Below are positions 13,102 through 16,667 of a DNA stretch of 28,170 bases, piece by piece. The translations under genes were made by a program, and so were the position numbers. Origin of the DNA: a virus; the IMG/VR virus record IMGVR_UViG_3300025889_000733, positions 1 to 28,170 of that record. One strand, 5' to 3'. Under the pieces are notes generated by a model, which saw nothing but the letters and a program-made list of their open reading frames with translations, did no database searches and was not told the origin of the DNA. How positions within the stretch are numbered: the stretch's first letter is position 1; each line of letters begins with the position of its first letter.

Positions 13102-15129
13102 TTAATACCCTCGTATTCCTACTTGCTTAGTTTTTCTTATTCCGAGATCTGCTGCGAACCTTCCGAAGTGCTTGAACGGTTGGATTACTACTGTCTGTAC
13201 ACTTGGAGAGCCTCCCTGCTGGAGATTTCGAACCCCTTGCTCTCCTCCGATTCTCCGTACAGTAGCTCTATCCAATACTGCTTCTCCTCGCAATACTCTA
13301 GCCCCCATCTCATCTGGGGCCATCCCTCCCATATGGAACTGAGCTTGCGGAGCAGGTTGGCTAGCGATTACTGCTGCTTGAGCGGTTCCGGTAGCAATTG
13401 CTAATCCTGTCATGATTGGAGCCAATACTGGTCCATATCCTTGGGCTTTCGCTACGTTCTCCGCAGTAGTCATCGCTACTTCAGCGAGAGAGGCTGCCTT
13501 AGATAGTTGGAAGAGGGCTATCGCTGCATGGGCTCTGCGTTTAAGGGCTTCTCTCTCTTTCTCGGTAAGTGTATCGAGTACTTCCTGCTGCTTCTTTCCT
13601 GCTTCTACATCGATGGTATTTATCTCCATCTTCTGGGCCATCAGTTGCTCGAGGCTACTTGTAAGAGCAGAAAAGGAACCGATAACCGCTTGGGAGTTCT
13701 CCAATTGTTGCTCTAAGATACCGTTAACCGTTTCCGATTCTACTTCGAGGTTCTCCATCTTGCTCTGGTGTCTTAGGGCTTCGATTGCCATAGCAGCCTC
13801 GGCTTCTCTATCGGTAGCGATACCGAGCCAAGTAAGAGCCTCTATCTCTGCATTAATCCGATCTTGCTGGGCTAGTTTCTTCTTCCCTTCATCATCGAGG
13901 AAAGCTTCTGCCATAGCCCGATCCATCTTATCCTGGAGGGCTTTCTCCTTAAGAATATCATCAGAGAGAGCGAAGGCTTCCTCTAGAGCATCGATAGCCT
14001 TCTCTTCTGCTTGTACTGTTCTCTCGGATGCTTTGGCTCTTCTTTCCGCTTGCTCTGCTGCCTCTTCGGTTGCATCTGTAAGCTCTTTCTCAAGAGTTAC
14101 CATCTCCATCGCAAGATCTTTGGATTCCTCTTGCATCTTCTGGATTGCTTGTACCTTCTTCTCTTCTAGGGCTTTCCTGCTTTGGAGTTCATCTTCTAGA
14201 ATCAGAAGAGCAGATCTTTGATCTAATCCTTGCTTAGTTAGATCTAGGCTATTCTTTACAGTATCATTCTGTAATTGGAGAGTTCTTAATCTCTCTATCT
14301 CTTGCTCTGAGAGTACTACGTTTGCTTCCGCTCCTTGCTTATTGGCTTCGATTAAGGATTGAACTGTACCCAGTAGTAAAGAAGTCTCCTTTACTGAAGC
14401 CTGGGCTCCTTCTATATTTCCTCGGAAACTTTCGTAAGCAGATTCCCCAGCCTTCTCTAGATTGTATTGATATTCGGAGATCTGGCCTGTAAGAAGTTGA
14501 TACTCCAATCTCTGCTCTCGTACCTTTGAGGCTGCATCTTCTAGATTTCTTTGCTGGGCTTCCTGGCTTTCGATTAGAGATTTCTGAGCATCCCGAAGAT
14601 CGAGAGTAGTTTGCTTAACCTTCTCTAGTTCTGCTTGATGCGCTACATATCCAAGAGTTAAGGCTCCAATAGCAACCCCAGCAGCAATAACAAGAGGATT
14701 AAGAGCAGCGAAGGACATAGTTAATCCTTCAGTAACTGCGAAAGCATCTGCTAATCCATCTGCTGCTTCTGCTAACTGAGGATTAACACCTCTAAGAGCT
14801 AATCCAATAGAAGAGAATCCCCTATCAATATCTCCGGATGCTTCCCCTACTCGTTCTAAGCGTTCTTCTGCTCTTCGGGCTGCATCTGCCATATCCTCGA
14901 AATCTGCTGCACCTCTTCTAGCGGCTTGGCTGGCTTGCTTGGCTGCTTTCTTGGATGCTTCTGCGCTCTTCTGAGCAGCCTTCTCCGCTTGCTTCAGTTG
15001 CCTATCGAGAGCGGATACCATCTTCTTAGCTTCTGCCTCGGTTACATTAGGCATCTGCTTAAGTTTGTTAATCAGATCCTTAAGATCTGCCTTATACGAG
15101 ATCGATATACTTCTTTTCTCTTCTGCCAT
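13102..15129 (-). CDS. Tape measure protein
   Basis: Sets tail length and is ejected during DNA delivery. The 675-residue protein is mostly long helical coiled coil rich in Ala, Glu, Lys and Gln. Hydrophobic segments lie near 145-165 (LNPLVIAAGVAIGALTLGYV) and 570-595. The C-terminus has the typical FHMGGMAPDEMGARVLRGEAVLDR motif region seen in many tape measures. It follows the tail tube and tail chaperone genes, as expected. The length predicts a tail of roughly 100 nm using the usual 0.15 nm per residue. It starts after GGAGGATCTA with a TAATG overlap. Confidence 0.9.
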   Translation of the reverse strand: MAEEKRSISISYKADLKDLINKLKQMPNVTEAEAKKMVSALDRQLKQAEKAAQKSAEASKKAAKQASQAARRGAADFEDMADAARRAEERLERVGEASGDIDRGFSSIGLALRGVNPQLAEAADGLADAFAVTEGLTMSFAALNPLVIAAGVAIGALTLGYVAHQAELEKVKQTTLDLRDAQKSLIESQEAQQRNLEDAASKVREQRLEYQLLTGQISEYQYNLEKAGESAYESFRGNIEGAQASVKETSLLLGTVQSLIEANKQGAEANVVLSEQEIERLRTLQLQNDTVKNSLDLTKQGLDQRSALLILEDELQSRKALEEKKVQAIQKMQEESKDLAMEMVTLEKELTDATEEAAEQAERRAKASERTVQAEEKAIDALEEAFALSDDILKEKALQDKMDRAMAEAFLDDEGKKKLAQQDRINAEIEALTWLGIATDREAEAAMAIEALRHQSKMENLEVESETVNGILEQQLENSQAVIGSFSALTSSLEQLMAQKMEINTIDVEAGKKQQEVLDTLTEKEREALKRRAHAAIALFQLSKAASLAEVAMTTAENVAKAQGYGPVLAPIMTGLAIATGTAQAAVIASQPAPQAQFHMGGMAPDEMGARVLRGEAVLDRATVRRIGGEQGVRNLQQGGSPSVQTVVIQPFKHFGRFAADLGIRKTKQVGIRGY

Positions 15130-15599
15130 TAGATCCTCCGCATTAGATCATCGGCTAGAGCCTTAACGATCTTGTTAGATGCTTTCTTCTGGGGCTTTAC
15201 CATAAGTTCATCGGCTACCCTCTTTCCTTGAGGTTGGATAATATCTTGCCCTCTATTGTTCTCCGAATCTACTCCAAACTTTATAGCCCAAGAGTAAGGA
15301 GCCCTATTTACCAAGTAGGCTTCGAAATCTCCGTTAGCAGTTATCCGAAATCCTCTCTCGAACATCTTCCAAGAGCCCTTCGTTACTTCTCGATAGAAAA
15401 CTACGTTACCTTCTTTATCTTTTCTGATCTGGGGCTTCCGTACTGGCCAATCTTTCTTAGCATCTCGTTCGATCTTCTCCATCTCATCTGTAAGGATCTT
15501 TCGAGCATTAGGAGCAACCTTATCGAGAAAGCCTGTATAGAAATCTTGGAGATCTGTATCGATCTCGATTCCGGCTCTCTTTGTTGTAAATTTTTTCAT
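15129..15599 (-). CDS. HK97 gp10-like tail completion protein
   Basis: The 156-residue product contains VNRAPYSWAIKFGVDS (about 97-112), matching the APY-x-x-x-x-E/K-FG signature of HK97 gp10-like proteins, which act in head-tail joining or tail completion. A basic helical C-terminus follows (KPQKKASNKIVKALADDL). Its position is unusual: these genes normally precede the tail tube gene, but here it sits between the tail chaperone and the tape measure. It starts two bases after the stop of the frameshift extension, behind AAGGGG. Confidence 0.7.
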   Translation of the reverse strand: MKKFTTKRAGIEIDTDLQDFYTGFLDKVAPNARKILTDEMEKIERDAKKDWPVRKPQIRKDKEGNVVFYREVTKGSWKMFERGFRITANGDFEAYLVNRAPYSWAIKFGVDSENNRGQDIIQPQGKRVADELMVKPQKKASNKIVKALADDLMRRI

Positions 15600-15601
15600 G
15601 G

Positions 15602-15813
15602 TTAACCCCTTAGCATCTCCTCCATTCTAGCCCTTTTTATCCGCTCTTGTCTATCTTTGGCTTCTTTGGAATCTTCGGTAGATAATCGATATTCAGCAAG
15701 GAGAGAGATCCGGAGATCTTCTGGGAGAGTATAAAACCATAAAGGATCTTTCCCCCATCGGAGAGAGATCCTTAATGCAAGGAGATCTAGCGATCCTCTC
15801 CCTCTTGCGTAAA
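15602..15813 (-). CDS. -1 frameshift extension of tail assembly chaperone (GT-like)
   Basis: The sequence downstream of the chaperone stop codon is open in the -1 frame for 69 codons, with no start codon or ribosome site of its own near its beginning. The product has WGKDPLWFYTLPEDLR and then a charged helical tail ending RMEEMLRG. The W-x-K-D/P-F-x-x-LP pattern recalls the second part of frameshifted tail chaperones. With a -1 slip at 15811-15817 the fusion would be about 183 residues. It fills what would otherwise be a 187-base gap in a tightly packed operon. Confidence 0.75.
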
Positions 15814-16152
15814 ATTTGCTCGATCTTCTACCTCTTTCTCACTGGGGATAACTTTCATCATCTCCAAGAGAACCTCGGAGCCCATCTCGTAGACCTTACC
15901 CGGAGTAACTCCTGCATCTAGCAAGCGATCTAGAACCTTATGCCCGTAAGCAATCGGATCTCCGCTATTGAGATTGTAAGCAGGTAAAACTCGCTTATGG
16001 TCTACGGATACCGCAATAGCAGCAGCGCATAGCCTTCCAAGTTGGGCTCGATTGGGATCGCTCCCCCAGATCGCTACGAAGTCTAAGCAAGTAGCGATCG
16101 AAGTGGGGATCTTTCCCTCGTGAGTTCCAAGTTTTCCAAGATAAAATAGCAT
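15787..16152 (-). CDS. Tail assembly chaperone (G-like), 121 aa
   Basis: Lies directly between tail tube and tape measure modules, where phage lambda has gpG/gpGT. The helical 121-residue protein is the zero-frame product; it coats or guides the tape measure during tail assembly by analogy with lambda. Recognisable elements are RLCAAAIAVSV (40-50) and IAYGHKVLDRLLDAG (67-81). It starts behind GGAGGTACT. A slippery heptamer overlaps codons 113-114, eight codons before the stop, giving access to the downstream -1 frame. Primary sequence of this family is poorly conserved, so the call rests largely on position and the frameshift. Confidence 0.78.
   Translation of the reverse strand: MLFYLGKLGTHEGKIPTSIATCLDFVAIWGSDPNRAQLGRLCAAAIAVSVDHKRVLPAYNLNSGDPIAYGHKVLDRLLDAGVTPGKVYEMGSEVLLEMMKVIPSEKEVEDRANFTQEGEDR
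15811..15817 (-). promoter_or_regulatory. -1 programmed frameshift slippery site
   Basis: On the minus strand the heptamer A AAT TTT (X XXY YYZ) is in the correct phase, read AAT-TTT in frame 0 and AAA-TTT after slipping. A possible stimulatory stem follows about ten bases downstream (GGAGA pairing with TCTCC, 11-base loop). Confidence 0.78.
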
Positions 16153-16169
16153 AGTACCTCCTTATGCCA

Positions 16170-16667
16170 TTACGCTACAGTAAGACCACCGTAACAAGTG
16201 AAGTTCAAAGTAAAACTACTTGGATCACCTTCTGAGAAGTCCAAAGAGCAGATACATTTAGATAATGTTACTGTGTGATCGGCTTCTGCGGTATCTGGGC
16301 TATCTGCTAAGTACTTGATATCGATAGTGTAGTGTTCTACATATGGAGTACCAGTAAGACCAGTAGAAACATTAGCAGAGTAAGCACCGCTAGCATTAAT
16401 AAAATCTCGAACCGATCCAGCGTTTACTCCATCTGTGAACTGTCTGAAGTGGAAAGAGAACGATCCGCTCTTGGCTTGCTCATCTTGTTTACGGATAGCA
16501 GCAAAGTTACCTCGATCCATTACTACGAGTTCTGAGAACTGCTGGGGATCGGAGAAAGTAAAGTTACCATCTTCATAGGCTACTTCTAGGGTTACAGGGG
16601 TTCCAGTTCCATCGAGAAGAGTAATAACACCATCTCGTTTAGTCTTAGGGATTGTTGAATATGCCAT
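16170..16667 (-). CDS. Major tail tube protein
   Basis: The 165-residue protein has the size and beta-rich make-up of siphovirus tail tube subunits. It begins MAYSTIPKTKRDGVITLLDG, contains FSFHFRQFTDG (about 69-79), and ends with FTLNFTCYGGLTVA, a strand typical of tube proteins (LNF/LTF near the C-terminus). It sits just before the frameshifted chaperone gene, as in lambda and many siphoviruses. A strong GGAGG precedes the start. It forms the stacked rings through which DNA passes. Confidence 0.8.
   Translation of the reverse strand: MAYSTIPKTKRDGVITLLDGTGTPVTLEVAYEDGNFTFSDPQQFSELVVMDRGNFAAIRKQDEQAKSGSFSFHFRQFTDGVNAGSVRDFINASGAYSANVSTGLTGTPYVEHYTIDIKYLADSPDTAEADHTVTLSKCICSLDFSEGDPSSFTLNFTCYGGLTVA

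Follow-up and report, generated by a model that had tools for sequence, protein, structure and literature searches.

A probable lambda G/GT-type tail assembly chaperone with a predicted -1 ribosomal frameshift in a group of uncultivated phages

Upstream of the tape measure gene in an IMG/VR virus record of 28,170 bases (the whole stretch of DNA analysed here, referred to as the window), a 187-base gap separates the end of a short gene from the next ATG (15599). Is this gap empty, or does it encode the second part of a protein that ribosomes reach by changing frame? In phage lambda, a gene located between tail tube and tape measure carries a -1 frameshift near its 3' end and gives a short and an extended product, the gpG/gpGT tail assembly chaperone (Levin 1993; Xu 2004, 2013, 2014, as cited in PMC5009743). 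The window has a similar arrangement, and the original prediction read the locus as a chaperone of this kind. Our analysis supports that reading: based on its sequence and that of its relatives, the locus very probably encodes a lambda G/GT-type tail assembly chaperone made with a -1 ribosomal frameshift. The evidence consists of the position, a conserved slip site and a -1 extension under selection, with the function deduced from position and architecture.

The heptamer AAATTTT occurs in phase in the 0 frame of the short gene, here called G, as gcA AAT TTT (minus strand, 15817-15811). The G stop TAG is the eighth codon past the heptamer, as in the original prediction, with seven sense codons between them. 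After a slip at this site, the -1 frame encodes YARGRGSLDLLALRISLRWGKDPLWFYTLPEDLRISLLAEYRLSTEDSKEAKDRQERIKRARMEEMLRG over 69 codons and ends with a TAA at 15604-15602, so that the extension fills the gap up to the next gene; this part of the prediction was likewise borne out. The bare motif AAATTTT is not rare in the window (4 seen, 4.1 expected). Of 36 genes tested, none but G has an XXXYYYZ motif in phase within 20 codons of its stop, and an open run of 69 codons has a probability of about 0.012 in shuffled sequence. The coordinates are collected in Table 1.

Table 1. Features of the predicted frameshift locus and its surroundings in the window.
Feature	Coordinates	Strand	Basis or remark
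Gene in tail tube position, 165 aa, highly conserved	16170..16667	-	tube identity by position only
Shine-Dalgarno-like AAGGAGG, 4 nt 5' of the G ATG	16157..16163	-	read from sequence
G-like 0-frame gene, 121 aa, incl. stop TAG	15787..16152	-	relatives in 81 loci; dN/dS 0.12
Slippery heptamer A AAT TTT	15811..15817	-	80/81 loci keep it; zero third-position changes on tree
Predicted GT frameshift product, 183 aa	15602..16152	-	sequence
T-like -1 frame extension, 69 codons + TAA	15602..15811	-	open in relatives, purifying selection, without conserved start
Dual-coding 0-frame tail 3' of heptamer, TQEGEDR + TAG	15787..15810	-	length varies among relatives
Possible stimulatory stem-loop, 8 nt past heptamer, weaker stem	15777..15802	-	weak, not family-wide
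Second, stronger hairpin	15742..15773	-	strong in window's clade; not conserved family-wide
Conserved 156-aa gene between GT and tape measure	15129..15599	-	conserved in relatives
Tape measure protein, 675 aa	13102..15129	-	phrog_1506 E 2.3e-7

We then compared the locus with its relatives, 81 loci that are 57-97% identical to the window over the best segment; 80 come from IMG/VR and one from a contig of a Rhodospirillaceae metagenome-assembled genome. The relatives keep the heptamer, as the original prediction expected, in the form A AAT TTT in 80 of the 81 loci. The exception (L057:5320-5345) reads GCG GAT TTT TCC TAA, i.e., G GAT TTT. Homologues with stops in the -1 frame or without a slip site, the comparative findings named as able to overturn the prediction, did not occur: the -1 frame is open in 81/81 loci up to its stop or the contig end. 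We take the slip-site observation as settled because it is conserved in the relatives. The 0-frame stop moves among these genomes while the heptamer stays put; the number of 0-frame sense codons after it is 0, 1, 6, 7, or 8, and in one clade the stop lies exactly one sense codon past the heptamer. In most relatives the stop of the extension adjoins or overlaps the next ATG. With a heptamer frozen in about 60 distinct sequences and the stop behind it shifting, the group provides a strong comparative data set. Apart from the G GAT TTT of L057, the slip site has no natural variant in the group, and G GAT TTT is itself a known shift site. It is that of pea enation mosaic virus, where a nearby stop affects efficiency (PMC5009743); a close stop is also found in one clade of the relatives of the window. 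That virus is an RNA virus of plants and the gene is unrelated, so the parallel extends to slip-site mechanics only.

A tree of 59 distinct sequences reveals zero changes at the silent third positions of the slip-site Ala, Asn, and Phe codons, whereas each of 15 other conserved two-codon columns changes at least once, with a mean of 7.3 changes. The median dN/dS, estimated by pairwise counting and thus rough, though the contrast is large, is 0.120 in G and, past the overlap, 0.195 in the extension. The other two sense frames of the extension have values of 0.94 and 1.68, and both contain stops in 59/59 sequences, while the antisense frames have values of 0.93, 0.48, and 2.31. The proposed check for a low ratio in the extension therefore gave about 0.2, against 0.5-2.3 in other frames. 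Judged by these ratios, the extension evolves as a protein, under purifying selection. The comparison of sequences demonstrates the slip site, the two frames and the selection on both products.

In the proposed mechanism, most ribosomes would translate 121 codons and stop, producing G. At A AAT TTT, a minority with tRNA-Asn in the P site and tRNA-Phe in the A site would slip, with the tRNAs re-pairing one base back, on AAA and TTT; these ribosomes would read 69 further codons in the -1 frame and produce GT, a protein of 183 aa. In lambda, according to the account in PMC5009743, G and GT are made at 30:1, which puts GT at a few per cent; G attaches to the tape measure protein and T to the tube protein, and neither is present in virions. 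By analogy, the tape measure protein here would be coated by G in many copies and GT in few, and the T part would bring in tail tube subunits. That ribosomes slip here, how efficiently they do so, and that the products serve as a chaperone are our inferences. The predicted tryptic junction peptide of the GT fusion, ANFYAR, would be diagnostic for the product. The peptide originally suggested for mass spectrometry, GKDPLWFYTLPEDLR, is an incomplete tryptic product and needs correction, as trypsin would yield DPLWFYTLPEDLR.

The original prediction placed the gene between tail tube and tape measure. It follows the tube-like gene (assigned by position) and lies upstream of the tape measure gene, but a conserved 156-aa gene (15599-15129) intervenes. 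Relatives with enough sequence to cover this region share the order of tube-like gene, G/GT, 156-aa gene, and tape measure. Family searches returned no match for the 165-aa tube candidate and none for the 156-aa gene. Elsewhere in the window, the major head protein is matched by phrog_544 and PF25209, and the terminase by PF03237. The 156-aa gene (15129-15599) is absent from the lambda gene order.

Could the two frames be explained in some other way? The extension might be a separate small gene, with its own start codon or translated by ribosomes that re-initiate at the G stop. Such coupling near the TAG could in principle give access to the -1 frame, and some relatives have an ATG at extension codon 12 (codons 10-16 in one clade). 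However, the relatives have no conserved ATG, GTG, or TTG at the junction, and the window lacks a -1 frame start all the way from the upstream -1 stop to extension codon 30. A separate gene would also leave the frozen silent positions of the heptamer unexplained, and we regard it as very unlikely. Alternatively, one ordinary gene might have been cut in two by decay or by an error in sequencing or assembly, and a one-base difference would fuse the frames. Yet all 81 loci, which come from many independent assemblies, are split at this one site, and both parts are under purifying selection. The relatives thus refute this reading, whose probability we consider negligible. The slippage that joins the frames at AAATTTT, which is an A run followed by a T run, could also be that of RNA polymerase (transcriptional realignment) and not that of the ribosome. 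The longest homopolymer at the window site is four T, which is short for transcriptional slippage, whereas the pattern and phase fit tandem tRNA slippage. Moreover, the G GAT TTT exception breaks the A run and is nevertheless a ribosomal shift site, leaving polymerase slippage extremely improbable.

A real frameshift could also produce something other than a tail chaperone, given that neither G nor T has a family or fold match. Searches of Pfam, PHROGs, NCBIfam, and PDB sequences gave nothing significant for either protein, nor did Foldseek with their models, and a search of a phage collection recovered no match for GT or for the G of a divergent relative (L079). The case for a chaperone thus comes from position and architecture. 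Against a different function, a G/GT identity agrees with the position relative to the tape measure gene, the sizes, the predicted helical folds, and the -1 extension. AlphaFold models of G and T, folded as separate proteins, are mostly helical (pLDDT 86 and 80, respectively), and T has a weak, below-cutoff match to PF06854 Phage_Gp15 (best E 0.01). A non-chaperone product thus appears highly improbable. Under the chaperone reading, these proteins are probably tail chaperones of a family that escapes profile libraries. A more far-reaching reading, which we consider unlikely, is that the family of G and T has no kinship with the chaperones described so far and perhaps invented the frameshift arrangement independently, with the 156-aa gene as a third component that helps to handle the tape measure.

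The sequence downstream of the heptamer may contribute to the predicted frameshift in some of these phages. Canonical tandem -1 frameshift signals often, but not always, include a stimulatory structure there. In the window, bases 15805-15740, which include both hairpins, fold at -28.3 kcal/mol (z -2.36). The mean z of the downstream stretch is -1.35 (60 sequences) versus -0.21 in control stretches of G. The family consensus fold is poor, with 8 pairs and a small covariation term, and it did not recover a family-wide stem with good covariation downstream of the heptamer; Rfam gave no match for the putative stimulator. A clade-specific frameshift stimulator is possible.

The G/GT frameshift as a phenomenon is already known (Xu, Hendrix and Duda 2004, as cited in PMC5009743), and G/GT genes of different phages share little sequence (PMC5009743). 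What is new here is very probably a previously undescribed protein family that, on the comparative evidence, uses it near-invariantly. An uncultivated phage group without close isolates would thus also use the G/GT frameshift. Compared to lambda, the locus differs in its A AAT TTT slip site, in having no detectable relation to known chaperone families and in the extra conserved gene before the tape measure. The literature search found only one paper in which AAATTTT is given as a slippery sequence of a phage, in a Wolbachia phage hydrolase, which is a different gene (PMC10299305).

The nearest isolates by capsid are phage DSL-LC06 (L084) and Pelagibacter phage HTVC112P (L085), at 27-30% identity. 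Both have a gene order similar to that of the window and, at the corresponding position, an analogous slip site and a -1 extension of about 60 codons that fills the gap before the tape measure gene. They differ in their slip sites, A AAA AAC and A AAA AAG, respectively, with a TAG immediately after, and the extension is unannotated. In DSL-LC06 (OR003941.1, 15480-15671), the annotated tail assembly chaperone ends A AAA AAC TAG and the -1 frame continues for about 60 codons past the stop; this is probably a missed GT extension. In HTVC112P (MN698246.1, 15490-15675), gp40 ends A AAA AAG TAG and the -1 frame is open for about 58 codons, as far as the start of the tape measure gene; in place of an extension, the record has a reverse-strand ORF, gp41. 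Comparison of profiles for G and T of the window with profiles for the chaperones of these two phages, the latter built from two sequences only, detected no relation. Annotation misses such extensions, apparently in these two published isolates as well. In Salmonella phage PMBT28 (L086; MG641885.1, 1528-2228), AUZ95505.1 contains a T TTT TTC motif 16 codons ahead of its stop, and the -1 frame continues across the following, separately annotated gene, AWH90828.1. Judging from this layout, the two are probably a GT fusion annotated as two genes.

Two tetramers are strongly depleted in the window, CGCG (2 seen versus 18.2 expected) and AGCT (58 versus 195.3), as if restriction sites were being avoided.
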